Both the position numbers and the translations under genes were made by a program. DNA of 47,759 nt, from assembly GCA_027298025.1 (NCBI GenBank), contig JAPUGV010000277.1:1-47759 (forward strand). Reading direction: 5' to 3'. Source of the DNA: Chloroflexota bacterium. Lineage in GTDB: Bacteria > Chloroflexota > Anaerolineae > Anaerolineales > E44-bin32. This document shows, piece by piece, positions 28,547 through 43,852 of the stretch (the stretch's first letter is position 1; the number at the start of each line of letters is the position of its first letter). A model generated the notes under the pieces. That model did no database searches and was not told where the DNA came from. It was given only the letters and a program-made list of their open reading frames with translations.

Positions 28547-28567
28547 CCCTGCCAATGCCCGACTCGC

Positions 28568-28594
28568 AGCCCCCGGACACGGGGGCTTCTTCTT
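28568..28594 (+). terminator. Rho-independent terminator after the ABC ATPase gene
   Basis: AGCCCCCG-GACA-CGGGGGCT followed by TTCTTCTT. Confidence 0.75.
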
Positions 28595-28602
28595 GCCCGC
28601 CC

Positions 28603-29814
28603 ATGCAATCACTCGATTTACTGACTCAACTCCACCGTCCATCCTCGGCGAAGATCATTCTGCTCGTTTTAGACGGTCTTGGGGGCCTTCCGATGCAGAC
28701 TGGAGGGGCAACCGCGCTCGAAGCAGCCGCGACCCCTAATCTTGACCGGCTAGCTCAAGAAGGAACGACCGGCCAAACGATCCCCATTCTGCATGGTGTA
28801 GCGCCTGGGTCGGGCCCAGCGCACCTTTCGCTTTTTGGGTACGATCCCCTGAAATACGATGTCGGCCGCGGCGTCCTGGAGGCCACCGGCATTGGATTGC
28901 AGGTCGCCCCCGGGGATGTAGCGGCGAGGGGAAATTTCTGCACGCTCGATGGTGACGGCCTGATCACAGATCGACGCGCAGGCCGATTACCATCCGAGGC
29001 GGCCGCTCCGCTGGTGGAACAGCTGGACTCGATTAAGATCCCCGGGTACACGTTCGAAATCCGACAGGTTCGAGAGTACCGCTTCGCCCTGGTTGCTAGA
29101 GGAGAGGGACTTGAGCCAGGGCTTTCTGACACCGATCCCCAGCGAGTGGGCCAGGCTCCGCTGCAGGTTGTCCCCGAAACGCCGCAGTCACAGGCGTCAG
29201 CGGAGCTGTTCAACCAATGGATTGAGGCCTCTCGTTCCGTGCTTGCCCAAGAACCTCTGGCCAACGGGCTGACTCTGCGAGGATTCTCGACCGATCCCGA
29301 GTTGCCACAGTTCGGCCAGAGCTACGGTCTGAATGCGCTCTGCGTGGCGGTGTATCCGATGTACAAAGGTGTTGCCAAGCTGGTTGGCATGGAAATCCTG
29401 GAGTTTGAAGGTGAAGATCCCGCCGATGAATTCTCCGCCCTCGGACCCCGATGGGACGAGTTCGATTTTGCCTTCATTCATGTGAAGGCTCCCGACAGCC
29501 GGGGCGAAGACGGAGACTTTGAGGGGAAGGCGGCGGTTATCGAGCAGATTGACCGGGAACTCGGCCGGCTGATGGACCTCGAACCGGCAGTGCTCGCGGT
29601 AACGGGTGACCATTCCACCCCGGCACGCATGCGATCGCACTCCTGGCATCCCGTACCTCTGCTGATATGGGCGCCCGATACTGTGCGACCGGATGACTCA
29701 CTTAATTTTGGAGAGCGCGACTGTGCCCGTGGCGGGCTGGGAACCTTTCCTGCCAAGTCCTTGATGGCGCTGCTGCTCGCCCACGCCGGCCGTCTCAACA
29801 AGTTCGGCGCCTAA
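28603..29814 (+). CDS. apgM: 2,3-bisphosphoglycerate-independent phosphoglycerate mutase, archaeal type
   Basis: KIILLVLDGLGGLP, HLSLFGYDPLKYDVGRGVLEATGIG, VTGDHSTPARMRSHSWHPVPLL; start moved to ATG 28603 because a terminator occupies the called N-terminus. Confidence 0.9.
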   Translation: MQSLDLLTQLHRPSSAKIILLVLDGLGGLPMQTGGATALEAAATPNLDRLAQEGTTGQTIPILHGVAPGSGPAHLSLFGYDPLKYDVGRGVLEATGIGLQVAPGDVAARGNFCTLDGDGLITDRRAGRLPSEAAAPLVEQLDSIKIPGYTFEIRQVREYRFALVARGEGLEPGLSDTDPQRVGQAPLQVVPETPQSQASAELFNQWIEASRSVLAQEPLANGLTLRGFSTDPELPQFGQSYGLNALCVAVYPMYKGVAKLVGMEILEFEGEDPADEFSALGPRWDEFDFAFIHVKAPDSRGEDGDFEGKAAVIEQIDRELGRLMDLEPAVLAVTGDHSTPARMRSHSWHPVPLLIWAPDTVRPDDSLNFGERDCARGGLGTFPAKSLMALLLAHAGRLNKFGA

Positions 29815-30494
29815 CCGGTGCGTGAGAGAAGCAAGCGCGAGATCATGTACAGCAGGCCGGCCTGGACCAGAGTCGCCACACCGACGGTACCAAAGGCCAC
29901 CTGCCAGAAACGTACGGGGAATAACCGAATCAAGGTGTCGCTGAACAGGAAGGTCCACGTATTTGGATCGAAGAAGACCTCGTGGAAGCCAACAAAAAGC
30001 ACCGAGAACGCGACGATCAACCCTATCAGCAGAATGACCATGACCAGCGCGGTCAGCTTGGCACCTCCCTGCAGGGTTTCCCAGATATATTGGCTGCCGG
30101 CGACTCTCCACAAGAGCACGCTGGTGGCGAGCGCGGTAACCAATCCAATGCGCCAGAGGTTTAAGGCTGCTCGGGTGACCTGCTTGACGTCCGCCATGTG
30201 GCCGAGCTCGCGCAGATTGTAAACCGGGGTGCCATCATCAAATTGCTGATCCCCAAGAAACTCGATTTCCGCATCATTCAGCAGATATTCGAGCGCGATA
30301 GGAGCATGGCGGAGCCGATCCGCTTGGGTAAACCCGTATAAGTCCCTCGGGAAGCCAGGCAGGGCATAATTGAAGCGCACGAAAGTGCTGGTCATCATCA
30401 GCCGCACGCTTGTCAGCACAAGGATTACCGGAATGAGCACTTGCAGGAAGACGCGCGCTGCCGTCAGCCATCCGGGTTGCGAAGTCGCATCCAT
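29811..30494 (-). CDS. Integral membrane protein, DUF1461/TIGR01906-like
   Basis: FVRFNYALPGFPRDLYGFTQADRLRHAPIALEYLL...LRELGHMADVK with several TM segments. Confidence 0.75.
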   Translation of the reverse strand: MDATSQPGWLTAARVFLQVLIPVILVLTSVRLMMTSTFVRFNYALPGFPRDLYGFTQADRLRHAPIALEYLLNDAEIEFLGDQQFDDGTPVYNLRELGHMADVKQVTRAALNLWRIGLVTALATSVLLWRVAGSQYIWETLQGGAKLTALVMVILLIGLIVAFSVLFVGFHEVFFDPNTWTFLFSDTLIRLFPVRFWQVAFGTVGVATLVQAGLLYMISRLLLSRTG

Positions 30495-32062
30495 CAGGGC
30501 AGTCCTTCCATCCCCCCCAGCACAAATTGGAGCACAATCGAGTTGATTAGTTGTTCGACCGGCGCACGATCATCGGTGAACACGATGTCCGTTTCGGGCG
30601 TGGTTCGGATGTTCGCCGTCGCACGGTTGAGCACATCGATCAGTTCATTCGGTGCCTCGCGTCCTTCCAGGGCCAGGAGGTTTTCCACCAGGTTAGTGGC
30701 CTGCGTCGGCTCTCGCGTAGCATACAACAGCGAATTGAAGCTTCCCGGCACATCCACCAGATATACCGAGGGAAAGACGGCCTGGATCGTTCCAGCCAGT
30801 GCCTCGATCAGCCGTCTATCCTCAGCAGTACGCCCCACGTTTATCGCTAACACCCCCCGATCTTCAAGATGATCCGCCACGTTTTGGAAAAACTCAACCG
30901 AAGTTAGTTCCCAGGGAATATAGGGCGCGCGATAAGCGTCGATCGCGATGACCGAATACAGGTGCTCGCTTTGTTCAAGACCCGTGCGACCATCGGCTAC
31001 AATCGCATTTAGGTTTGGCTCGTTCATATCGAAGTATTCGCGGCCGACGCGGATGATCTCTGGATCGATTTCCCATCCATCGATAGGTACCGGTCCGAAA
31101 ATCTCTGAATACTGCTTCGCAATCGTGCCCCCGGCCAGGCCAATTAAACCCACCCGTCCAAGATCATCTAGCTCCACCGGGGCGGGATTGAAAAAAGGCG
31201 CTACGAGAAACATTTCCCATGTGCCGTATCCGTATGGAGGTGCACCTTCCTCCGGCAAATATATCGAGTGTTCCGCCAACCCCTCATTCAGGTAGAGCAG
31301 GCGCACGCCATCGTTCTCCACTACCTGGATGTAATTGTACGAGGACTCCGTTTCATACAGCGAACCGTCCTTGATTGGACCCGAGAGCGCCAGAGCGGAC
31401 AGGCCGATCAGCGCGATCGGCATCCATGCGTATCGCAGCATCCTGCGCGCACCACTCTCGAAGGCCAGACCTCCAAGTGCCATTAGCAGTAGAACTAGAC
31501 TGAACAAGAGGAACGTGCGGGCGGTGCCGATCGTTGGGATCAGCCATAATACCGGCAGAAAGGTTCCAAGAATCGAGCCTACGGTTGAAACCGCATACAC
31601 CCTTCCCGATGTGCGGCCCGCTTTCGCCGTCTCCGTGATCGAAAGACGGATAGCGAAGGGGGATACGCAGCCCAGCAGTGTGATCGGGACAACGAAGAGT
31701 ACGAGCACTGAAATGAAGGAACCGACCATAATCGCCGCGTCCAGTGCCTGCACTGCGACCGCCGCCTGCCGCAACACGGGCCGGGAAATTAGCGGCACCA
31801 GCCCCGCAGTGAACGCCCCCCACGCGATGATGCGATAGAAGGTGTCAGCATAGGGAGAGCGATCGGCCCATCGGCCGCCTATGAAGTAGCCGGCAGCCAA
31901 GTAAATCAGGATGAGGCCGATAATGTTTGCCCACACGATATTGCTGGTACCAAACACCGTGCCGAGCAATCGAGCGGCCGTGATTTCAATCGCCAGGGTC
32001 GTCATGCCGGCGGTGAAAACCGCAAGAATGATGAGCCTCTCACGCGTAATCAATCTGGTCAT
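30494..32062 (-). CDS. Spermidine synthase-like methyltransferase-fold domain fused to N-terminal TM region
   Basis: TM-rich N half; GLIGLAGGTIAKQYSEIFGPVPIDGWEIDPEIIRVGREYFDMNEPNLNAIVADGRTGL...VIAIDAYRAPYIPWEL. Confidence 0.8.
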   Translation of the reverse strand: MTRLITRERLIILAVFTAGMTTLAIEITAARLLGTVFGTSNIVWANIIGLILIYLAAGYFIGGRWADRSPYADTFYRIIAWGAFTAGLVPLISRPVLRQAAVAVQALDAAIMVGSFISVLVLFVVPITLLGCVSPFAIRLSITETAKAGRTSGRVYAVSTVGSILGTFLPVLWLIPTIGTARTFLLFSLVLLLMALGGLAFESGARRMLRYAWMPIALIGLSALALSGPIKDGSLYETESSYNYIQVVENDGVRLLYLNEGLAEHSIYLPEEGAPPYGYGTWEMFLVAPFFNPAPVELDDLGRVGLIGLAGGTIAKQYSEIFGPVPIDGWEIDPEIIRVGREYFDMNEPNLNAIVADGRTGLEQSEHLYSVIAIDAYRAPYIPWELTSVEFFQNVADHLEDRGVLAINVGRTAEDRRLIEALAGTIQAVFPSVYLVDVPGSFNSLLYATREPTQATNLVENLLALEGREAPNELIDVLNRATANIRTTPETDIVFTDDRAPVEQLINSIVLQFVLGGMEGLP

Positions 32063-32091
32063 GGATAATCGCAGAATTGTACTTCGTTGAA

Positions 32092-33177
32092 CTATTGCGC
32101 CACCAGGATCGCCAATAGGGCAGACCAAAAGAGACTGTACCGCAGCGGCCGCAAGAGTTGTTGCGAGGCGGAAAACAAAATCACAGCCAGTACCAGGCCG
32201 CTTGCAAATCGCACCAGCCCTAGCGGCTCACGAAAGGTCGAGAACGGCAGGGCCATCACCGCAATTCCATTCCCGAGCAGCGACCAGGTTTCCGCCGAAG
32301 ACATGCCTCTGAGGATCGATCGAACGGAGACGACTACGGCCCATATCGTGGGCAGCACGATTGTTGGCAAGAACATAATGAGAAACAGACCCAGTGCGAG
32401 CATGTCCACAGATCCGATGCGAAATAATCCCATGAAGGGGATCCACTCGAATGAGGTGGCCATATCCCCACCGCTTCCCAGTCCAAGGCTCCCAAAGGTC
32501 CTCCAAAGCCAGGCCTGCCAGCCGATGAAGATCACCAGGGAGGCCAGATAGGCGACTAAGGGACGAGTTCTCCGTTGCCCGGTCAGCTCAGCCAGGAGGG
32601 CGGCGGCCAAGAAAATGATCGTGGTTTCTTTTGCAAACAGGGCCAGGCCGAGCAGCAGTGCACTCCACACGACCCTGCCTCTCGCTCTTAGCAGCCATCC
32701 CCCCGCCGCGAGGCCATAGGCCAGGGGTTCCCCAAGTCCCACCCCAATGGGAGCCACCAGGCCCACCCATAAGCCATAAGACAGCGCATACCAGGGATTC
32801 AACACCCGATCCAGCAGGAAGCGCGCGACCGCCCACGTGCCTCCCCAGTGCGCCAGCAGGCCCGCAATCACCAAAGTCCATGGCAGCCAGGCTTCGACCC
32901 CCATCGACATCAAGCGTGCGGAGAGCGGGAACAGGATCCGTTGATACCGATAGGCGGGGACATCCAATTTCGGCCCGACTTCTTTCGGGTCGGGGTTCGA
33001 GGCGATGTAGTAGGAAAACTGCCCATCGTACCCGGGCGAGCCACCCTCAATTCCCTGAGAAAAGCGGGTACCCAACTCGAAGAGTTCGATTGGCGCCCAG
33101 CCAAGGCTTGCCAGGCGCCAGACAACGTAGGCGGCTGCTGCCAGGGTCGATATCGTTGCTGGCCAGAAGGCTCTCAT
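32092..33177 (-). CDS. Polytopic membrane protein resembling cell-surface glycopolymer formation (AZOBR_p60025-like) proteins
   Basis: MRAFWPATISTLAAAAYVVWRL...GSPGYDGQFSYYIASNPDP; ATGA overlap with upstream gene; family name recalled, not searched. Confidence 0.6.
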   Translation of the reverse strand: MRAFWPATISTLAAAAYVVWRLASLGWAPIELFELGTRFSQGIEGGSPGYDGQFSYYIASNPDPKEVGPKLDVPAYRYQRILFPLSARLMSMGVEAWLPWTLVIAGLLAHWGGTWAVARFLLDRVLNPWYALSYGLWVGLVAPIGVGLGEPLAYGLAAGGWLLRARGRVVWSALLLGLALFAKETTIIFLAAALLAELTGQRRTRPLVAYLASLVIFIGWQAWLWRTFGSLGLGSGGDMATSFEWIPFMGLFRIGSVDMLALGLFLIMFLPTIVLPTIWAVVVSVRSILRGMSSAETWSLLGNGIAVMALPFSTFREPLGLVRFASGLVLAVILFSASQQLLRPLRYSLFWSALLAILVAQ

Positions 33178-35372
33178 TTGCGACTCAGGTATGCGAAAGC
33201 CGCCAACCCCACAAGGGACAGCGCAAGGCCGATGGGGACCGTGGTCGGACGGTAGCTGAAGTTCACCGTGTGTTGTCCCGCTGGAACCCACACGGCTCTC
33301 ATAACCCCATATGCAGGATAGCTTTCGGTGGCCCGACCATCGAGCTCGGCCGTCCATCCTGGATACCAGGTATCTGCCAGCACCAGCCAGCCTCCCTCCG
33401 GCGCCTCAACCGCAAGCTCCACCTCGTTTGGACCCTTATCTTGGAGGGCCGTCACCACGCCCAGACCGCCCACCTCCGGTCGGGGATCCCCTTCCAGCAG
33501 CACTTCTTCGGATGGGTCGAATTCTGGAGCGGTCGTTTTGCGGATGGCCTCCGTTGGACTCGTCACCCACTCTGCTCTCGGAACAATCCAGGCCCGCACT
33601 GGAGCCGATACCGGGTCATAGTGAGTCGGAACGTCCACAGCCTGCCATCCAACGTCCATATAGCGCAGCAATCGGTCGCGCAGCGCGGGGGTCGTACGTT
33701 CCAGTTGCACCATCCATGCGACATATCTTGCGGGGAGCAGAGGATCGAAATTGTTGACGGATGGTAGTCGATCCAGCAATAGCGTATTCGGCAGACCACT
33801 TTCTCGAACGATCCGCCAGTCGAGCTCGGGTTGAAAGTCGTCAAATCGAAACGCTATATCAAACTTAATTTCTCTCTCCACGTCTTGCGACATGTACAGA
33901 CGATGGTCACCAGACACTTCCTCACTGAGAGCGGTCGGGGCCGAGTTGAACTGGGCTGGTAATGTGGGATTGAGCCCACGACCGGCAAGGAAGAGGTCGA
34001 GCACAACGACACCGAGGGCGGCCGCGGTCCATCCTTTTCGGGCCGGATCCGTGCGCAGAAGTGTCAGGATTCCGCTGGCGGCCAGCCAGAGCCCGGCCAC
34101 GGCAATCGCGCGGGTGAAAGTCGGTTGGATGTCGGTCTCAAGTAAGCCGATCAGGGCGGCGACCACCAGGACGGCAACCGATCCGGCGGTGCCAAGGCGA
34201 ATCCAATAGAGTTTCCGCCCCCCCGCAACCTTCCAATGTTCGGCTCCCAGGCCTGCGAGCAGCGACAGAGAGGCAATCAGCCAGAGATTCCAACGTGTGG
34301 GCGCCTGGAATAAGGAAAACGTCGGGACATTCTCGAAAAGGAAGGTGAAGATGGGCGTGTTGTTTCCGAGGCTCAGTAGAAATGCGACCGCTGCAGTCCC
34401 GAGCAGGAACCATCTAAGACGGCCGCTCCTTTTGGAAAAGAGTGCACCGACGGCCAGGAGGAATGGAAGCACCCCTATGTAGATCGCGTCTTCCCAGAAA
34501 TTTCCGTAACCCCAGAAATCTGCTGTCCGCGGATTGCCATAAAGATCGGGCGCAACGAGCCCGAATAACCGCCAGGGCCAAAACGAATAGGTCAATGCGA
34601 ATTCAGGGTCTAGATCACCAGCCCGGTTGGAAACCGACACATACTCCAGTGTCGGAATGAGCTGCACGGCGGCAATGGCAAATGCGAGCACCCCGGCCGC
34701 CACCAGAGACACGACTGCTTTTCCAGCCGAGCCTGAGTAGAAGCGCGTACGGTATGCGACCCACGCAGCGGCCAGAATTAGCGTGTACCATGCGATCTGC
34801 GCGTGTCCTGAGAGCCACTGGAGGCCGAGCACCAGACCGAGCAAGGCCACGGTGCGCGGCTTGGGCTTTTGTGACAAGCCCTCTGCGGCAAACAGGATCC
34901 AGGGTAGCCAGGCCGCGGCGGCATTGATACTGAGGAAGCCTGATCTGGCAACCAGGTACCCAGACATCCCGTACGCAAGCCCTGCGATGGCCTGGGCAAA
35001 CGCACCGAGCCTCACGGACCGAGCAAGCAATGCCATGCCGAATCCGGCCCATATGAGGTGCAGCAAAACCAACAGCGTTTGGCCCCACGAGACATCCGTC
35101 GCTAGCAATATCCAGTTCGGCGGATACAGCAGCGCCGATTGATAATTCGCCAGCAGCGGTGCTCCCATTCCCAGCCACGGGTTCCACAATGGGAAGTGGC
35201 CCAAAAAAGCGATCTCTTTGGCCGCAGTGTGCCATGGCGTGAACTGCAGTAAGGGAGCACCCCAGAAAAGCGCCCGACCTCGGATCAGGTCGATTCCGAA
35301 GAGAAGAATCGGCCCGACTGCAATTGGCAGCCAGGGAAGTGCCTTACGGAAGGCAGGTTTGGTAGAGTTCAT
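33174..35372 (-). CDS. YfhO-like polytopic membrane protein (copy B1)
   Basis: HFPLWNPWLGMGAPLLANYQSALLYPPNW and C-terminal YPGWTAELDGRATESYPAYGVMRAVWVPAGQHTVNFSYRP; ATG 35372 chosen. Confidence 0.8.
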   Translation of the reverse strand: MNSTKPAFRKALPWLPIAVGPILLFGIDLIRGRALFWGAPLLQFTPWHTAAKEIAFLGHFPLWNPWLGMGAPLLANYQSALLYPPNWILLATDVSWGQTLLVLLHLIWAGFGMALLARSVRLGAFAQAIAGLAYGMSGYLVARSGFLSINAAAAWLPWILFAAEGLSQKPKPRTVALLGLVLGLQWLSGHAQIAWYTLILAAAWVAYRTRFYSGSAGKAVVSLVAAGVLAFAIAAVQLIPTLEYVSVSNRAGDLDPEFALTYSFWPWRLFGLVAPDLYGNPRTADFWGYGNFWEDAIYIGVLPFLLAVGALFSKRSGRLRWFLLGTAAVAFLLSLGNNTPIFTFLFENVPTFSLFQAPTRWNLWLIASLSLLAGLGAEHWKVAGGRKLYWIRLGTAGSVAVLVVAALIGLLETDIQPTFTRAIAVAGLWLAASGILTLLRTDPARKGWTAAALGVVVLDLFLAGRGLNPTLPAQFNSAPTALSEEVSGDHRLYMSQDVEREIKFDIAFRFDDFQPELDWRIVRESGLPNTLLLDRLPSVNNFDPLLPARYVAWMVQLERTTPALRDRLLRYMDVGWQAVDVPTHYDPVSAPVRAWIVPRAEWVTSPTEAIRKTTAPEFDPSEEVLLEGDPRPEVGGLGVVTALQDKGPNEVELAVEAPEGGWLVLADTWYPGWTAELDGRATESYPAYGVMRAVWVPAGQHTVNFSYRPTTVPIGLALSLVGLAAFAYLSRK

Positions 35373-36891
35373 ATCCGCCTTGACCGTCCAAGAGATCCAA
35401 ACACTCCCATTCCTGCGGGTCCCAATCGCCAAGGGCGCGCTCTCTAGGTCCGAAAATCACATAGGTGATTCGCTCTTCTCGTATGAGTGACATTCGCTGT
35501 TCTTCTGTCCCTGAAACCTGATAGAAATCTTCGATCCTGGGTTTCAATCCGGCCAGCCCCGCGGTCTCAGGCCCGTGACCGGCGACAACTCGCACCGGTG
35601 CCCAAGCCGGTAGGGGATTGCTGGTTTCGAACGAGGCCAGCACAATCGCCGACGGCTCCGCCAGCTGACTCAGGCGGCGAAATGCCTCGACCTCTTCCTG
35701 AGGTCGGAAGGCAGGCTCTCGAGCGTTCAGCGCAAGCTCAAATCCCCCGGCCAGGATCAAGAGGCTGCTAGGGATCAACAAGATGGCCATGGCGACCCTT
35801 CCAAGCCTCCGCCTTGGGCCTCCTTCGAGCGTAGCAAGCCCCGCCGCCGCCAGCACGGTCAGCGCCACCCAGCCACCCTCTGGAAGTCGGCGCTGTATGT
35901 TTAGCGGCGCCCACGCCAACGCCGGGATGGCAATCGCCCAGGCAACCGGAAACAACAACGCCTCCCGATTTCGACGTAGCAGACTACCCGCACCTATGAA
36001 AGCGGCAGGTAGCAGAATGCCGAACGCTAGCAGATACAGGATGGGATGAGGCGAAAGGATGAGATTTTGAGCGGTCCAGGCTTGCAGGTATGGATCCGTG
36101 AGCGCTTTATAGCCAAGGTACGCACTCAGTGGGACGGAGGGCAGGATCGAGCGCGCGAGGCGTTTCATCCAATGGGCCTTATTCGCTCCAAATCCCAGGA
36201 CCGCAATCGCGTGCGCGGCCAGTACTGCAAAGGCAGAGAGCAATTCGGGAGAATGGATTAGGCCCGCAAGAAGCAGGGCAAAGCCTGAGCGCCAGCTCGA
36301 TTCATCCTGTAGATACCAGACAAAGCCGAGGAGCATCAGCGCTCTTCCCAGCGTCAGATGCGGCAGACCGTATATGGCCAGGAACCCGAAGGTCTCCGGA
36401 GAGTAAAACTCTAGAGGCAGACTGCCGGCAACCGCCGGCTGTCCCAGAAAAATCAGAAACCAACCCAGCCCTCCCCCGATTGTTGCGATAACCACCGTCC
36501 AGCGGCGCAGCCCAATGTTTTCAATAAACAACGACGAGAACCGGTACACCGCGAGCACCAGGGCTGGGATAGCCAACACGCGAAACAAGTGGTAGAGCGC
36601 CACCAGCTGGCCATGAGATCCGTCGCTCGCTTTACCGAGCAAGAGGTACGGCAAGAACGCTAGAACGCCGGTTTGCTCTGTTGCGGAATACGGGCTTCTA
36701 AAGAGCCAAGCTCCCTCAAATCCCGAGAGCATCTTAGCGATGTACGAATTGCCGTCTTCTGCAGCGATGAGAAATCCGGTGAAGGTCCAATCATGTGTCG
36801 GGCTTGTGGCTGCCAGCAAGTAAGGCAGGCTTGTTACAAGTGCCAGCATCAACGAGTAGAGCAGGGCCCAGCGAATCTCGCTTCTCGTCAA
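35344..36891 (-). CDS. Uncharacterised polytopic membrane protein (copy A1)
   Basis: 515 aa, multiple TM; TSLPYLL...FTGFLIAAEDGNSYIAKMLSG shared with the 39116-40729 gene; TTG start overlaps upstream stop. Confidence 0.75.
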   Translation of the reverse strand: MTRSEIRWALLYSLMLALVTSLPYLLAATSPTHDWTFTGFLIAAEDGNSYIAKMLSGFEGAWLFRSPYSATEQTGVLAFLPYLLLGKASDGSHGQLVALYHLFRVLAIPALVLAVYRFSSLFIENIGLRRWTVVIATIGGGLGWFLIFLGQPAVAGSLPLEFYSPETFGFLAIYGLPHLTLGRALMLLGFVWYLQDESSWRSGFALLLAGLIHSPELLSAFAVLAAHAIAVLGFGANKAHWMKRLARSILPSVPLSAYLGYKALTDPYLQAWTAQNLILSPHPILYLLAFGILLPAAFIGAGSLLRRNREALLFPVAWAIAIPALAWAPLNIQRRLPEGGWVALTVLAAAGLATLEGGPRRRLGRVAMAILLIPSSLLILAGGFELALNAREPAFRPQEEVEAFRRLSQLAEPSAIVLASFETSNPLPAWAPVRVVAGHGPETAGLAGLKPRIEDFYQVSGTEEQRMSLIREERITYVIFGPRERALGDWDPQEWECLDLLDGQGGYELYQTCLP

Positions 36892-39119
36892 CGCCTGATC
36901 CAGATCGATGCCAACACGATCAGTCCGATGAGGGTGACGAGCGCTCCCGCCCGCAGCGAGTTGGGGCGGAAGGCAAACTCCACTTCGTGCTCCCCGGACG
37001 ACAGTTCAACCGCGCGCAGCAGCCCCGCGTACGTCTCGAGGGGGGCCGTCGCACCGTCGATCGTCGCCTCCCACCCTGGATACGCGATTTCACTAACAAC
37101 GAGCGTCCCCGGTCCCATAGCTCGCATTGCGATTCGATTGGGGGTCCGCTCCACCACCTCTACCGGTCCCCCGCCATCGATCCAGGCACGCGGCCTGGCA
37201 TGAGGATTGCGGTAGTAGTAGCGCCCCTGCTCCATTCTTTCAAACTCGAGATCGGGGTGCTCAATCGGATATGCCGAGACGATCTGGGAGATAGCGAGGT
37301 CTCCCATTAAGACCAGATCTGGCTTGAAGGCCCATTTGGCCCCAGGATCCACGAATGGTGGCAGAGTCACCGAATATTCGTCTTCACTGAATCCGGTGGC
37401 CCGTGACATATAGGCCGAGTAGGAGGCAAGCTGCAGAGGATTGATTCCATCCGCCAATTCGAGCCCCGCGGCGGCGGCAGCGGGCTGAGGCAGGCTGTAA
37501 GAGGGCGAAAACGCGCGTGGGTTGCCCGATTCCGGTCCCGCCTTTACACGTTCTAGATCCGGAGCAGGGCGTACTTCAATGGTAGTTAGATTCACCAGGC
37601 TGAGGTCGAGGACGATCAGCAGGCACCATCCCACGATTGACCCTAGCGACCGCTTACGTATGGAATTCCCGGTCCAGATGGCTGCCAATCCGATCAGCGC
37701 GGCAGATACGAAAAAGGCCGCCGACCGCAGTGCTGCCAGATTGCGCAGCAAGAGGCTGAGGCCCAGCACCAGAGATATGCCCGCGAGTGCCCCACCGATG
37801 ACGCGAAGCTGTCTGAGGTTTGCCCGTCCCTTGAGCATCTGATCCAATCCCATGCCGGCCAGCATGGCCAGCGCAAATGAAGAGAGGAACAAGCTACGGG
37901 GAGGTACGCGCAGTTTGCCAAACCCGGGCACGAGCGCAGATAGAAGCCCGTAGATCGGTGTGAGGTCGCCAAGAGCGACAATGAGCGAGAAGATAACAAC
38001 TCCTACCCAGAACCACCGTCCCGGCGCACGGCTCGGCAGTGTCGTCACGGCAAGGAAGAGCACCACGACCCCTGCATATATCTGCCATTCCGGCCAGCCT
38101 GCGTACTCGGGAGCCAACGCGTTCAGTAGATATTTGGGAGGCAGGCGGAGTGCCGTCGATTGAGCTAGAGAAAGGTTCGCGCGAGTACTGAGCGATACAA
38201 ACTCACCCAACGGTACGGCCAATATCGCCGCAACGGCCAGAGACATTAGCCCGGCGATGATGAGGGCCGAGGCCGCTCGGGTCCAACTCGCTCCCTCACC
38301 GCCGATATTGCCGACCTTACGAGGGGCTTCTCCTAGCGCTTGCGATTGCTGTGCGCCTGAATCTCCGTTTTCTGCGGAGCCGATTTTCCCCTGGCGATTT
38401 TTGATCATGAGTTGCGACGGTCTGAGATCTTGTGGTGCGGCTTCATCCGCATTTTGCTCCGTAGATCTTATTTGGCTATGCGCAAAACGCCACACAGCAA
38501 ATGCCCCCGCTAGCAGCGCCGATGGCAAGTACCAACGCGGATCGATTAGAAATACCATGCCCAGCGCGCCCCCTGCGAGCGCCGCAGATGCGAGGCGCCT
38601 CCCATTCAATTCGCGAACCGCCTTCTCAAAGGCGAGCAACACCCAGGGAGTCCAGTAGACGGCAAAGACCAGCGAAACGTGTCCGAGCCCAAAGTGCCCG
38701 ATCAGCTTTGGCATTCCCGCAAACGCCAAGCCCGCCACGATGGCCGGGCCCGACCGGATCCCGAGGGTTTGCCCAAGCTTCCACATGCCCAACCCGCCCC
38801 AGGCTATATGGAGCCAGGCCAGCAAATTGAATGCCACACCGGGATTTAGCACGATTGCCAGCCAGTTCGGCGGGTAATATAGCCCAGAAAGTGGATCGGC
38901 CGCGAACGGGGCGCCCGAGAGGATCATCGGATTCCAAAGGGGTACTTGCCCCCACTCAATCAGCGAACGCTGCACAAAGCTCGCATTCGGCCAATGAGAA
39001 ATCAGGAGATCCGAATATGCGCCCCCTCGCCAAAAAAGCACCCCCATCGGATCGCTGATTAGGGGCGCAAGCCATAACATGCCAGATAGCACAAAAATTA
39101 AAACGATGGCAGCGGTCAA
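36888..39119 (-). CDS. YfhO-like polytopic membrane protein (copy B2)
   Basis: QVPLWNPMILSGAPFAADPLSGLYYPPNW and YPGWEATIDGATAPLETYAGLLRAVELSSGEHEVEFAFRP; TTG start in TTGA overlap. Confidence 0.8.
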   Translation of the reverse strand: MTAAIVLIFVLSGMLWLAPLISDPMGVLFWRGGAYSDLLISHWPNASFVQRSLIEWGQVPLWNPMILSGAPFAADPLSGLYYPPNWLAIVLNPGVAFNLLAWLHIAWGGLGMWKLGQTLGIRSGPAIVAGLAFAGMPKLIGHFGLGHVSLVFAVYWTPWVLLAFEKAVRELNGRRLASAALAGGALGMVFLIDPRWYLPSALLAGAFAVWRFAHSQIRSTEQNADEAAPQDLRPSQLMIKNRQGKIGSAENGDSGAQQSQALGEAPRKVGNIGGEGASWTRAASALIIAGLMSLAVAAILAVPLGEFVSLSTRANLSLAQSTALRLPPKYLLNALAPEYAGWPEWQIYAGVVVLFLAVTTLPSRAPGRWFWVGVVIFSLIVALGDLTPIYGLLSALVPGFGKLRVPPRSLFLSSFALAMLAGMGLDQMLKGRANLRQLRVIGGALAGISLVLGLSLLLRNLAALRSAAFFVSAALIGLAAIWTGNSIRKRSLGSIVGWCLLIVLDLSLVNLTTIEVRPAPDLERVKAGPESGNPRAFSPSYSLPQPAAAAAGLELADGINPLQLASYSAYMSRATGFSEDEYSVTLPPFVDPGAKWAFKPDLVLMGDLAISQIVSAYPIEHPDLEFERMEQGRYYYRNPHARPRAWIDGGGPVEVVERTPNRIAMRAMGPGTLVVSEIAYPGWEATIDGATAPLETYAGLLRAVELSSGEHEVEFAFRPNSLRAGALVTLIGLIVLASIWIRR

Positions 39120-40729
39120 CGCTCCGGTACCTTATACAAGTCGGAGTCACCTTCCCGATGGGCAAATTCGGCTAGCGAGAGCCAAGAAGGAATCCCCAGC
39201 TTCTTCTCTTCTTCACCATAAAAGGCGTATTCGACGCCAGCCGCCCGAAGAGCCTGAAGCCCCAACACCGGATCCCCGTCCCAATTCCACAGTTCTCGAA
39301 CTAGCGCCTTTTGGGCATCTGAATGGGGGGTTTCAAATGGATGGCCATAAAGCACACGGACATCGCTATAGGCCGGCAATCGGTTGCCGGATTCGAGGCC
39401 GGCGAGGATCAGCGGATCTTCGGAGATGTTAAGTCCGATCCATTCGAGCAATGCCTGATCGCTCTCCGACATCACGACGCCTGCCTCTCCGCGCGAAACC
39501 GCAACTAATCCCGATCCGATGACGACCAGGTGAGAGGGTACGGAAAGCGCGATGGTTGCAGCCATCAACAGCGCAAACCTCCGACGGGTGGAAGCAATGG
39601 CATCTAGCCCGACGCCCGCCAGCGCCGCGAGGGGAATGAAGAGGCCGAGCGTCAGCCGACGCTGAAGGGAAACCGGCAAGTAGAGCATGAAAAATCCCAA
39701 GATGGCCCATGTGATCAGCAAGCGCCCGGAGGACCGACCGCGGGCATTTCCCAACAGCATTCCCACGACCGCTAATATCAGCACCAGGCCATATCCAAGT
39801 AGAACTTCCATGATGCCTGGTGTTGGCGTCAGATTTTGCGCATTCCAGGCGAATAAGACGGGATGCCGACGGATCACGCCCAACGTGTACACGAGCATCG
39901 GGAGGGCTCCAGCCAAAAATGCCGTCATCCCTACCACCCAGCTCCTTAGCTGCACGGCCTGCGTCCCGTGCAGGCGCTCGACCACCAGCCAGACGCCGAG
40001 CACAATTCCGATCGCGGCCACTGTGAATGGTTGAAGCAACGCCAATAGCAGCCCGCCGAGGAAGAGCACGGCTTGACGCGCATCCGGCAGAATCTTGGGG
40101 AACAGGATCAACGTTACGGAGGTTATCAAAGCCGCAGTCGCCAGCGGAAAGTGCGCATTGGCATAGGCTGAGAGGAACGGAATCGCCTCTGGAACCCACA
40201 GATCAATCGGAAGCAACCCCATGAGCAGGGCGATGCCACCCACTCCAGACCCAAATAGGGTGAGCACAAATGCAGCCCACTTAGCCCTCGGCGTCGGAAG
40301 CGTACGTACAAAGAAGAAATAGCTGCTTCCTAGCATTGCCAATGCGCCGAGCACACGCGCGGCATGGTAGGTCAGGATTTGCGGCAGCCCGATAACGCTG
40401 CTGATTCCGCCAAGGATCAGCTGGTATACAAAGAGCAAGACCCCCGGTCCCGGCTCGGGTGCATATGGAAGCCGAATCTCGAAAACGAGATCGGCCCCCT
40501 GCCGCATTTTGGCGAGATAGCTGAAGCCGTCAACAGGATTGATCAGGAATCCACTGAAAGTCGATCCCGTTTCGAGAAGCACGGGTGCGACCAAAAATGG
40601 AAGGGAGGTAAGCACGACAGCCAGCAGTGCCAGGCCGGCTGCCCAGCGCAGCTCGTGATTATGAAGCACGGCCGAGATTTTACGCCGGTATCGGCCACCC
40701 CGCCATTTGCCCCGCAAACCTCCCCACAT
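39116..40729 (-). CDS. Uncharacterised polytopic membrane protein (copy A2)
   Basis: 537 aa, multiple TM; TSLPFLV...FSGFLINPVDGFSYLAKMRQG homologous by eye to copy A1; exact start uncertain. Confidence 0.75.
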   Translation of the reverse strand: MWGGLRGKWRGGRYRRKISAVLHNHELRWAAGLALLAVVLTSLPFLVAPVLLETGSTFSGFLINPVDGFSYLAKMRQGADLVFEIRLPYAPEPGPGVLLFVYQLILGGISSVIGLPQILTYHAARVLGALAMLGSSYFFFVRTLPTPRAKWAAFVLTLFGSGVGGIALLMGLLPIDLWVPEAIPFLSAYANAHFPLATAALITSVTLILFPKILPDARQAVLFLGGLLLALLQPFTVAAIGIVLGVWLVVERLHGTQAVQLRSWVVGMTAFLAGALPMLVYTLGVIRRHPVLFAWNAQNLTPTPGIMEVLLGYGLVLILAVVGMLLGNARGRSSGRLLITWAILGFFMLYLPVSLQRRLTLGLFIPLAALAGVGLDAIASTRRRFALLMAATIALSVPSHLVVIGSGLVAVSRGEAGVVMSESDQALLEWIGLNISEDPLILAGLESGNRLPAYSDVRVLYGHPFETPHSDAQKALVRELWNWDGDPVLGLQALRAAGVEYAFYGEEEKKLGIPSWLSLAEFAHREGDSDLYKVPER

Positions 40730-40742: not shown

Positions 40743-41444
40743 ATGAGTCGCGCCTCTGGCTTGTACCGCCTCCAGGAAATTGATCTCGAGAATGATAGGC
40801 TAAAAGGGCGGCTTGAAGAAATTCGAATTACCCTCGATGATTCAGCTGAAATCACACAGCTTAGAGCCGATCTGGCTGCCAAGGAATCGGCATTGGCCAC
40901 CGTCCAGGCGGCATCCACGCGAGCCGAAAACGAGGTGGAAGATCAGCGGCTCAAAATCCAGAACACTGAGCAGGCCCTCTATGGGGGAAGCGTCAAACAT
41001 CCTAAGGAACTCGAGGATCTTGAAATGGAGTCGGAGTCGCTGAAGCGCCATCAAGACACGCTCGAGGATCGCTACCTGGAGGTCATGCTGGAGCAAGATG
41101 AAGCAGAAGGCAAGCTGACCCAAAGCTCGGCCTCCTTGGAGGTCGCTGAATCCGGTCAGGCGAGCCAGCACGTGGAGTTGGTCACCGAACGAGAGAGTAT
41201 TGATAATCGTCTGGCCAACCTGGAGGCCGAACGAGAAGTAGCATTAGCAAGCGTCTCTAAGCAGGATCAAGACGCCTATGAAGGATTGCGAACTCGCCTG
41301 CGTGGCGTAGCGGTAATCGTGCTGAACGGGGACAGCTGCGGCGCATGCGGGTTGACGCTATCCGCCTCTTCCCGACAACTGGTAGGCAGCGGTGACGAGC
41401 TCATACGCTGCACCCAGTGTGGTCGAATCCTGTACGGAGGTTAG
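40743..41444 (+). CDS. Coiled-coil protein with C-terminal C4-type zinc ribbon (CT398/CdsZ-like)
   Basis: Long coiled coil then CGACGLTLSASSRQLVGSGDELIRCTQCGRILY; ATG 40743 preferred over the called start because TATAAT lies inside the latter. Confidence 0.8.
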   Translation: MSRASGLYRLQEIDLENDRLKGRLEEIRITLDDSAEITQLRADLAAKESALATVQAASTRAENEVEDQRLKIQNTEQALYGGSVKHPKELEDLEMESESLKRHQDTLEDRYLEVMLEQDEAEGKLTQSSASLEVAESGQASQHVELVTERESIDNRLANLEAEREVALASVSKQDQDAYEGLRTRLRGVAVIVLNGDSCGACGLTLSASSRQLVGSGDELIRCTQCGRILYGG

Positions 41445-43852
41445 CGATTTTCGGACCCTTCGGACCTTTCGGAATACGGTTTGACATCGAAGAATTTATC
41501 GGCGGCCTAGTAGCCGGAATTCTCGTCGGTCTGCTCTTGGCCAGGCTCAAGCCGGCCTTTGTCTGGGTGATCGCAAGGATCAGAGAGCAGCTAAATTCCC
41601 TGCGGTCAGGGCTCACGGGCCGGGCCATTGACCGCTACCAGGTCGAACTTATTTCCCGCGCAGAAACTATGCACCTAGCTCGGGCTATTCTGGCGCTGGA
41701 TGAGATCCTCATTCCACCACGCGTGCTGGTCCCGCCCGCTCCATCCGATCCATCGAGCGATAACGATGTCCCACAGGACACACTTGGGGTTTTGCCGAAT
41801 CTTCCAGATTTCACCTACTTGTCCGGCGTATATGTGGCGCACACGCTTTCGCTCGGTGAGGCGCTGAGCAACGGCGCGGATCTGATACTCACGGGCGATC
41901 CGGGCAGTGGCCGATCCACGGCTCTGGCTTATCTGGCTATCCGGCTTGCGAACCGCGATGCGGCACTTGGCGAGCTCACGGGCAAGGTCCCCATTCTAGT
42001 ACATGCCGCAGACCTGCCGCTCGAGGGTCGCCAGGCTGCAATTGGACCGGTGATCGATGCCGCTCAACGGACCGTATCGCCGAGTGTGGCGGCCATGCTG
42101 CCCAGCTATATTCAAAAGCACTTTGAAAGCGGAAACGCACTCCTGCTCCTAGATGGGTTGGATGAGATCCCCTCCGAGGATCTCCCAGAAATTTCGACCT
42201 GGCTGAAGGAACTGCGCGCTCTGCATCAGGACCTTCGAATCGTAGCCGCGGGCCCGACGGATATGCTCGACGGACTGACGCAGGCAGGCCTGACTCCAGT
42301 TCCGATTGCCCCCTGGACGGAACGTATGCAGCGCGAGTTTTTTTCCAGGTGGGGTCGATCCTGGAACGAGCATGTCGTTCCGAACCAGCCGAAGAGTCGC
42401 ATCTCGGACATTGACCCGGCCTTGATAAATGGTTGGCTGGCCGGGACCACGCGCGGCCGAACTCCGGCTGAGATTACGCTTCGAGTTTGGGCAGCATACG
42501 CCGGCGATATTCGAGGTCAGCGAGCTGTGGACGATGCGGAATCCTACGCCGCGCGCGTGCTCTCTCCCGAGGAGCAGCGGCATGTCGAGGAAGTGGCCTT
42601 GGCTTGGCTGAAAGCCGGCAAAGCTGCCATCCCCGAGCGCGCCCTCCCAAAGGGGATTCCAATCCCAAGTTTGGTCGAAGCCGGGATTCTGGTTCGCAGA
42701 TCCGGGGGCCTCATTTCATTCTTCCAGCCCGGAATTGGCGCCTACTTTGGAGCGCGAGCCATGGCTCAGGGTGAGCTGTCGGAAAGCGTTGAGAGCGCCA
42801 GGTGGGAACCGGCGTCCAAGGCCCTGCACTACTATGCCGTACTCGGTGATCCCGAGGCGGCTGTCACGCGGGCCTTGAATTCCAATGGTGAGCCATTGGA
42901 GACGGGTCTGCTCAAGAGTGCCCGCTGGCTTCCTGATTCTTCGAGCAAGGCCGAGTGGCGAGGCAAGCTGCTCCGCGAAGTGGCAAAGATGGTTCAGGAC
43001 GCCGCCAAACCGTACGGCCTACGTCTGCGTGGGGTACATTCGCTTGCCAAGGCCGAGGAGGCATCGGTCAATATACTGTTCACACGAATGCTGAAATCAC
43101 CGGCAACCTCTAGCCGTGTCCTGGCGTGCCTGGGCCTTGGGGGTATGGCAGATGAGGATTCAGCGGAAGGCCTGGTCACGATCGCCCAGGGAGATTCGGA
43201 GCCTCTTGTGAGGCAGGCCGCATGCCTGGCGTTAGGGGCGATCGGCAACGATGCCGCGTTAGAAGGCCTGGGACAAGCGCTTTTGGGCGGGGACGAACAG
43301 CTCCGACTGGCGGCGGCGGAAGCGCTCGCGGTGCACCCAGATGAAGGCTACGGCATGTTGCGGGAGGCTGCGGAGCACGAGGAAATCATGACCCGTCGTG
43401 CAGCTGCATTTGGCCTGGCCAGGATTCAAGACGAGTGGGCGATCGAAATATTAGAGAGAGTCAAGGTGGATGACGAAGAGTGGATCGTACGCGGTGCGGC
43501 GGCCGAAGCCCTCGATCGTAGGCTCAAACCTCCCTGGAAGATCTATGCGCCTCCAAATGAGCCGGCAGAGCTGCCCTGGGTAATCGCATATGCGGCCAAA
43601 GAGGGCCTAGGAGTTGCACCGGGCAAAGCGTCTACTGAGATGTTGCGACGTGCATTGAGCAATGGATCGTTTGATGAGAAGGTCGCTGCACTGGAGGTGC
43701 TCGGCTGGGGCGCAGGCGAGGAGCTGACGCTCGAGCTTTACAAAGCACTCGAGTCGGGCGATGACCACCTGCGAGACATAGCGTTTGAATCGCTCTGGCG
43801 CTTGTCTACGACGGGGGTCCGCTTGCCCGACCCGCTGAAATTCGGCCTCTAA
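41417..43852 (+). CDS. Membrane-anchored NACHT-like NTPase with C-terminal HEAT repeats
   Basis: TM FIGGLVAGILVGLLLARL; P-loop-like GDPGSGRSTAL; NACHT-type Walker B LLLLDGLDEIPSEDLPEI; repeats such as VRQAACLALGAIGNDAALEGL. Confidence 0.78.
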   Translation: MWSNPVRRLAIFGPFGPFGIRFDIEEFIGGLVAGILVGLLLARLKPAFVWVIARIREQLNSLRSGLTGRAIDRYQVELISRAETMHLARAILALDEILIPPRVLVPPAPSDPSSDNDVPQDTLGVLPNLPDFTYLSGVYVAHTLSLGEALSNGADLILTGDPGSGRSTALAYLAIRLANRDAALGELTGKVPILVHAADLPLEGRQAAIGPVIDAAQRTVSPSVAAMLPSYIQKHFESGNALLLLDGLDEIPSEDLPEISTWLKELRALHQDLRIVAAGPTDMLDGLTQAGLTPVPIAPWTERMQREFFSRWGRSWNEHVVPNQPKSRISDIDPALINGWLAGTTRGRTPAEITLRVWAAYAGDIRGQRAVDDAESYAARVLSPEEQRHVEEVALAWLKAGKAAIPERALPKGIPIPSLVEAGILVRRSGGLISFFQPGIGAYFGARAMAQGELSESVESARWEPASKALHYYAVLGDPEAAVTRALNSNGEPLETGLLKSARWLPDSSSKAEWRGKLLREVAKMVQDAAKPYGLRLRGVHSLAKAEEASVNILFTRMLKSPATSSRVLACLGLGGMADEDSAEGLVTIAQGDSEPLVRQAACLALGAIGNDAALEGLGQALLGGDEQLRLAAAEALAVHPDEGYGMLREAAEHEEIMTRRAAAFGLARIQDEWAIEILERVKVDDEEWIVRGAAAEALDRRLKPPWKIYAPPNEPAELPWVIAYAAKEGLGVAPGKASTEMLRRALSNGSFDEKVAALEVLGWGAGEELTLELYKALESGDDHLRDIAFESLWRLSTTGVRLPDPLKFGL

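Follow-up and report, generated by a model that had tools for sequence, protein, structure and literature searches.

Organization of the gene row

The DNA analyzed (the window, 47,759 nucleotides) belongs to a Chloroflexota (Anaerolineae-type) draft genome of 2.7 Mb in 283 contigs, 90% complete, and the nearest relatives found for its proteins are from Chloroflexi/Anaerolineae genomes. Seven genes occupy the minus strand between positions 29,811 and 40,729 and are transcribed in the order A2, B2, A1, B1, C, a spermidine-synthase-like gene (SpdSyn) and Lit (Table 1). The first-pass annotation had described them as a tightly packed set, and all the open reading frames were confirmed, with junctions that overlap or nearly abut. 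The A2/B2 and B2/A1 junctions are TTGA overlaps in which TTG is the start codon of B2 and A1, the A1 and B1 genes overlap by about 29 nt if ATG 35372 is taken as the start of B1, and B1 and C are joined by an ATGA overlap. A gap of 29 nt separates C from SpdSyn (ATG 32062), the sequence TGATG is common to SpdSyn and Lit, and the end of the Lit gene overlaps the convergent phosphoglycerate mutase gene. An RNA family search found a tRNA and no other RNA family, and the frequency of promoter- or terminator-like sites was not above that in shuffled sequences.

Table 1. Genes of the row, its neighbors and the residues discussed in the text.
Feature	Position	Strand	Description	Remarks
A2	39116..40729	(-)	537 aa, predicted GT-C family, first gene of the row	Without curated Pfam/NCBIfam model
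A2 D67	40529..40531	(-)	Presumed catalytic Asp, start of first juxtamembrane helix	Conservation and model
B2	36888..39119	(-)	743 aa, YfhO	TTG start, TTGA overlap; Pfam E 5.2e-10
B2 D37	39009..39011	(-)	First-loop Asp of the SD..I.H motif	44/44 B2
B2 DPRW	38532..38543	(-)	In place of GHxQ of other YfhO-likes	GHxQ in 0/44 B2
A1	35344..36891	(-)	515 aa, paralogue of A2	TTG start, TTGA overlap
A1 D46	36754..36756	(-)	Presumed catalytic Asp (AEDGNSY)
B1	33174..35372	(-)	YfhO, 732 aa from ATG 35372 (752 aa from TTG 35432)	Pfam E 8.1e-21
B1 A59 (752-aa numbering)	35256..35258	(-)	Position of first-loop Asp in other YfhO-likes	Asp in 0/41 B1
B1 GHAQ	34797..34808	(-)	GHxQ motif, absent from B2	Kept in 41/41 B1
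C	32092..33177	(-)	361 aa, GYDGQF motif, optional tail gene	NF046093 relative
SpdSyn	30494..32062	(-)	Fused MFS/spermidine-synthase-like protein, optional tail gene	NF037959, 186 bits (cut-off 40)
Lit	29811..30494	(-)	Lit-family membrane protein, optional tail gene	PF07314 (formerly DUF1461), E 1.8e-19; TIGR01906
Phosphoglycerate-mutase-like gene	28,555-29,814		Convergent with the row	Named by eye from sequence
Zinc-ribbon coiled-coil gene	from 40,743		Divergent from the row	Followed by NACHT/HEAT-repeat gene

Conservation of the row across relatives

A search of relatives drawn from whole genomes and from a genome contig collection has revealed the gene order A2-B2-A1-B1 in about 32 loci across the taxonomic order, the window included, a count from which two recognized duplicates were left out and in which some remaining loci may come from nearly identical genomes that bear two names. 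This retention, which the earlier proposal had made one of its tests, indicates that the arrangement is selected and not due to chance. The divergent upstream neighbors, a zinc-ribbon coiled-coil gene (PF24481/PF02591) and a NACHT/HEAT-repeat gene (window 40743-43852), are also the same in most loci, and because they stay beside the row they may be functionally linked to it. Carriers in culture include Anaerolinea thermolimosa, Longilinea arvoryzae and Bellilinea caldifistulae, which makes the row amenable to study.

Single genes of the core have been lost or displaced in some relatives. Two genomes (G033, G035) carry A2-A1-B1, with B2 missing from the row, two others (G027, G040) carry B2-A1-B1-C, with A2 missing, and in another two (G025, G039) A2 sits on a different contig; A2 and B2 are therefore not an obligate neighbor pair. 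A1 was present in every row where B1 was found. When 41 genomes were searched with A2 and B1, strong B1 matches were obtained in nearly every genome bearing A, and most genomes without A had no strong B1 match; in three genomes (G006, G026, G032) the B1 matches were weak or partial only.

The last three genes, C, SpdSyn and Lit, were found mainly in the window's own family and are optional tail genes outside the conserved core. C matches NF046093 (AZOBR_p60025 family, cell surface glycopolymer formation) with 124 bits, below the curated cut-off of 150, and this model was matched by all 17 aligned C members. The final gene had been called DUF1461-like, a family assignment that was correct under what is now the name Lit. 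More often than by these tail genes, the core is followed by a MoxR-type AAA ATPase gene (PF07726) and a DUF58 gene, which come after B1 or C in 25 loci (including L036:12906-15205, L050 and L028); this pair is absent from the window's row, and one DUF58 match lies on another contig of the genome. In G027 and G040, which belong to one family, the row ends after C with a GT2 (DPMS-type) gene (L075:4217-4951 (-), L079) that is a candidate for the donor-making enzyme. The window's own row contains neither a GT2 nor a GtrA gene; searching its genome gave 12 GT2 matches and a single GtrA-like one. A separate observation is that this only GtrA-like gene lies about 4.5 kb from the gene of a 1120-aa protein (L094:2502-5864 (-)), which contains the motif DESLHTYYSW and has a C-terminal part that is repeated. 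By eye, this protein resembles a further GT-C-type enzyme to which a propeller-like domain is fused.

The A family is predicted to have a GT-C fold

A1 and A2, whose similarity the first-pass annotation had set as a refutation test, are paralogues that, aligned over 530 columns, are 28% identical (E 3e-39), and a search with A2 found no other A gene in this genome. The sequence motifs quoted for both the A and the B proteins were present, with their core letters conserved across orthologues. No curated Pfam or NCBIfam family covers A, which produced weak scattered matches including Dpy19 and Glyco_transf_22. The predicted model of A2, built with 46 sequences, had a mean pLDDT of 93.5 and a pTM of 0.92, and its 27 PDB matches at E<0.001 were all GT-C enzymes or complexes containing one, among them STT3/OST, PglB, AglB, AftA, AftD, DPY19 and ArnT. 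These fold matches, like those of the B1 model described below, have identities of about 9-15% and TM-scores of about 0.3-0.57. With this confident model of A2, and with A1 assigned by homology to it, A is predicted to be a GT-C family itself and so not a partner of unknown kind.

The residue D67 of A2 was invariant in 72/72 A-family proteins, distant Chloroflexota members included, and gives A an acidic residue in its first extracellular loop, as expected of GT-C glycosyltransferases. It lies near the start of a helix (65-79) that comes after the first long transmembrane helix of the model. In PimE, ALG6, ArnT and PglB the first juxtamembrane helix carries the catalytic Asp at its tip (PMC12041525), and D67, matched by the order of elements, is presumed to be the equivalent of this residue.

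Matches to the A profile, weak C-terminal ones counted, were obtained in 63 of the 201 sampled Chloroflexota genomes. At the 20 A loci inspected in other Chloroflexota and in distant relatives, no B gene was found next to A. Three loci (L074, L080, L144) have an A-A tandem without B, and the copies of L074 lie amid other large membrane-protein-like ORFs.

The B proteins belong to the YfhO family and have reciprocally lost motifs

As proposed from the sequence, B1 and B2 are YfhO-like: both exceed the gathering cut-off of Pfam YfhO (PF09586, 28.5 bits) with 74.5 and 38.8 bits, respectively, and they are the only PF09586 matches in this genome. The model was matched at E<=0.001 by 44 of the 47 aligned B members, and B1 and B2 align with each other in two collinear blocks (E 1e-25 and 9e-16). 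The predicted model of B1 (pLDDT 90.6) gave 11 PDB matches at E<0.001, all of them GT-C and including ArnT, AftD and STT3, which supports the GT-C fold anticipated for the YfhO family; B1 also has the C-terminal extracellular domain that goes with this fold. Profile searches of A and of B against solved structures yielded nothing meaningful at the sequence level, and the comparison of the A and B profiles gave a probability of 10%, so the kinship between A and B rests on fold only. In B2, a hydrophilic stretch (RSTEQNADEAAPQDLRPSQ...; window ~38330-38490) lies in a part poorly conserved among orthologues.

An alignment covering all row members collected has revealed that B1 and B2 differ at two motifs in opposite directions. 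The first-loop Asp was present in 44/44 B2 and 24/24 outside YfhO-likes and in 0/41 B1, where the position is occupied by Thr, Leu, Ile or Ala; the outside set comes from elsewhere in the phylum, includes one protein that is itself B2-like (L185) and leaves out two proteins with an alignment not usable at this site, L180 (out of register) and L193 (Ser). This Asp is not part of the definition of YfhO in Pfam. At this site B1 carries a WG.P.LQF.PW-type sequence, with the strict pattern in 33/41 members and differences at Pro, also without Asp, in the other eight. Conversely, GHxQ was found in 41/41 B1 and 0/44 B2, which have D.R instead; in the outside proteins it is common, although not universal (G 79%, H 62%, Q 75%). 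Since these counts are taken over related sequences, they represent few independent events, and the hypothesis concerning the GHxQ half was raised by the same data, as it was noticed while reading the alignment. The complementary motif losses read from this alignment are a new observation. The catalytic residues of YfhO were left unassigned by the 2018 work on B. subtilis (PMC5836110), and the reciprocal loss leads to residue-level predictions on which YfhO motifs matter.

Duplication history

The alternating order had suggested duplication of an A+B unit. Trees and clade tests were run with a quick method that is less reliable with long branches. The row copies of A1 and of A2 form separate clades with 100% support each, and their sisterhood has a support of 52%. 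B1 row copies also form a clade, as do those of B2 apart from the stray L185. In the free tree B1 is nearer to other YfhO-likes, and the B1 profile scores several of these above B2; B1 and B2 were not recovered as sisters, yet their sisterhood was not rejected (p 0.41). Both the A1/A2 and the B1/B2 splits predate the radiation of the order. A first rejection of the B1+B2 clade (p 1.3e-5) was an artefact of leaving L185 outside; p 0.41 is the value obtained with this protein placed inside. L185 (G036:C12:280500-285000) is a stand-alone B2-type YfhO located outside the row, with 542 bits to the B2 profile and with both the Asp and DIRW.

Proposed function of the row and alternative explanations

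We lean toward considering the row an extracytoplasmic glycosylation operon in which A2, B2 and A1 would be catalytic GT-C proteins and B1 a non-catalytic or re-tooled partner. The core A2-B2-A1-B1 would comprise four integral membrane proteins of GT-C fold. GT2 (DPMS-type) enzymes would make polyprenyl-phosphate sugars inside the cell, which would then be flipped outward; a GtrA-like protein is encoded elsewhere in the genome. At the outer face, A2, A1 and B2, which keep the Asp at the catalytic position, could use these sugars one after another in the assembly or decoration of a surface glycoconjugate, the acceptor of which may be a glycan, a lipid or a surface protein. B1, which lacks the Asp in every row relative, would most likely be a non-catalytic partner of A1, its constant companion in the rows, acting in acceptor or donor binding or as a scaffold. 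Gene order, homology, the folds of A2 and B1 and the motif losses come from the analysis itself; catalysis, donor and acceptor, like the folds of A1, B2 and C, are parts of the scheme that we infer, as is its division of labor, with A1 as enzyme, B1 as its partner and A2 and B2 as further transferases. In known systems YfhO proteins transfer sugars from C55-P-sugar at the outer face, working with a GtrA-type flippase and a GT-A enzyme, and YfhO of B. subtilis is needed, with partners of these two types, for the extracytoplasmic addition of GlcNAc to LTA (PMC8035078, PMC5836110). One of these works, a review, has also speculated that acceptor binding by certain GT-C enzymes depends on a second protein. 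Three Asp-bearing GT-C-type proteins beside one Asp-less YfhO would fit this idea.

It is possible, with a lower probability, that all four proteins are independent active glycosyltransferases for different sugars and that B1 uses another base residue without being a pseudoenzyme. B1 is otherwise well conserved (GHAQ, WED..Y.G, NNFDP, PGW) and its model is confident, and the paralogues PgfM1 and PgfM2 of the S. mutans pgf operon act at successive steps (PMC5856776), with NCBIfam models that match B1 and B2 weakly. This must be set against the absence of the Asp from all 41 B1 proteins when every B2 and all 24 outside YfhO-likes keep it. The exact complementarity of the motif losses, in two genes of one conserved row, could be explained by an obligate B1-B2 heterodimer splitting one YfhO activity, with the Asp side from B2 and the GHxQ side from B1, so that the paralogues would work only together, alongside two GT-Cs of an unnamed family. 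We regard this as improbable: within their rows, G033 and G035 keep B1 without B2, GHxQ is not universal in outside YfhO-likes, and the D.RW replacement of B2 may be functional.

Least probable, and rather doubtful, is the arrangement suggested at first, namely two A+B heterodimers derived from duplication of the A+B unit and forming a glycosyltransferase/flippase machine. Its alternating order is conserved and the A row clades are weakly sisters; however, the sisterhood of B1 and B2 was not recovered, though not rejected, in some genomes A2 or B2 has dropped out of the row or been relocated on its own, the 20 inspected A loci elsewhere have no adjacent B, and no flippase appeared among the confident fold matches of A2 and B1. 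Nothing in the data, in which the models are of single proteins, pointed to a flippase role or to an assembly of four subunits.

The row is thus real and conserved, and most likely represents a variant form of surface glycosylation by GT-C enzymes, in which the unexpected feature is that B1 and B2 have each lost a motif kept by the other. Being conserved across the order, and often beside the MoxR-DUF58 pair, it would mark a conserved envelope pathway. No open-access literature on YfhO together with Anaerolineae or Chloroflexi was found, so the locus seems undescribed there.

Comparison with known glycosylation systems

The row shares YfhO-family GT-C proteins with the multi-component transmembrane glycosylation systems of Firmicutes, CsbB/GtcA/YfhO and related ones (PMC8035078, PMC5836110), and GT2 and GtrA-type genes are likewise present in the window's genome; two relatives have a GT2 gene right beside the row. 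Unlike those systems, the row belongs to a different phylum, contains four predicted GT-C-type proteins, two of them from a non-YfhO family, and has no GT2 or GtrA gene of its own. The S. mutans pgf operon (PgfS-PgfM1-PgfE-PgfM2; PMC5856776) also encodes two large paralogous membrane proteins, whose models (NF047589/NF047590) are those matched weakly by B1 and B2; in contrast to the row, the streptococcal operon includes GT-A and epimerase genes, and the A family was not reported in it (PMC5856776). With STT3/PglB/AglB, AftA, AftD and ArnT the identity is only about 9-15%, and the A profile has no sequence-level match to solved structures, but the predicted fold is common to these enzymes and to A2 and B1, and A has an Asp at the first juxtamembrane helix.
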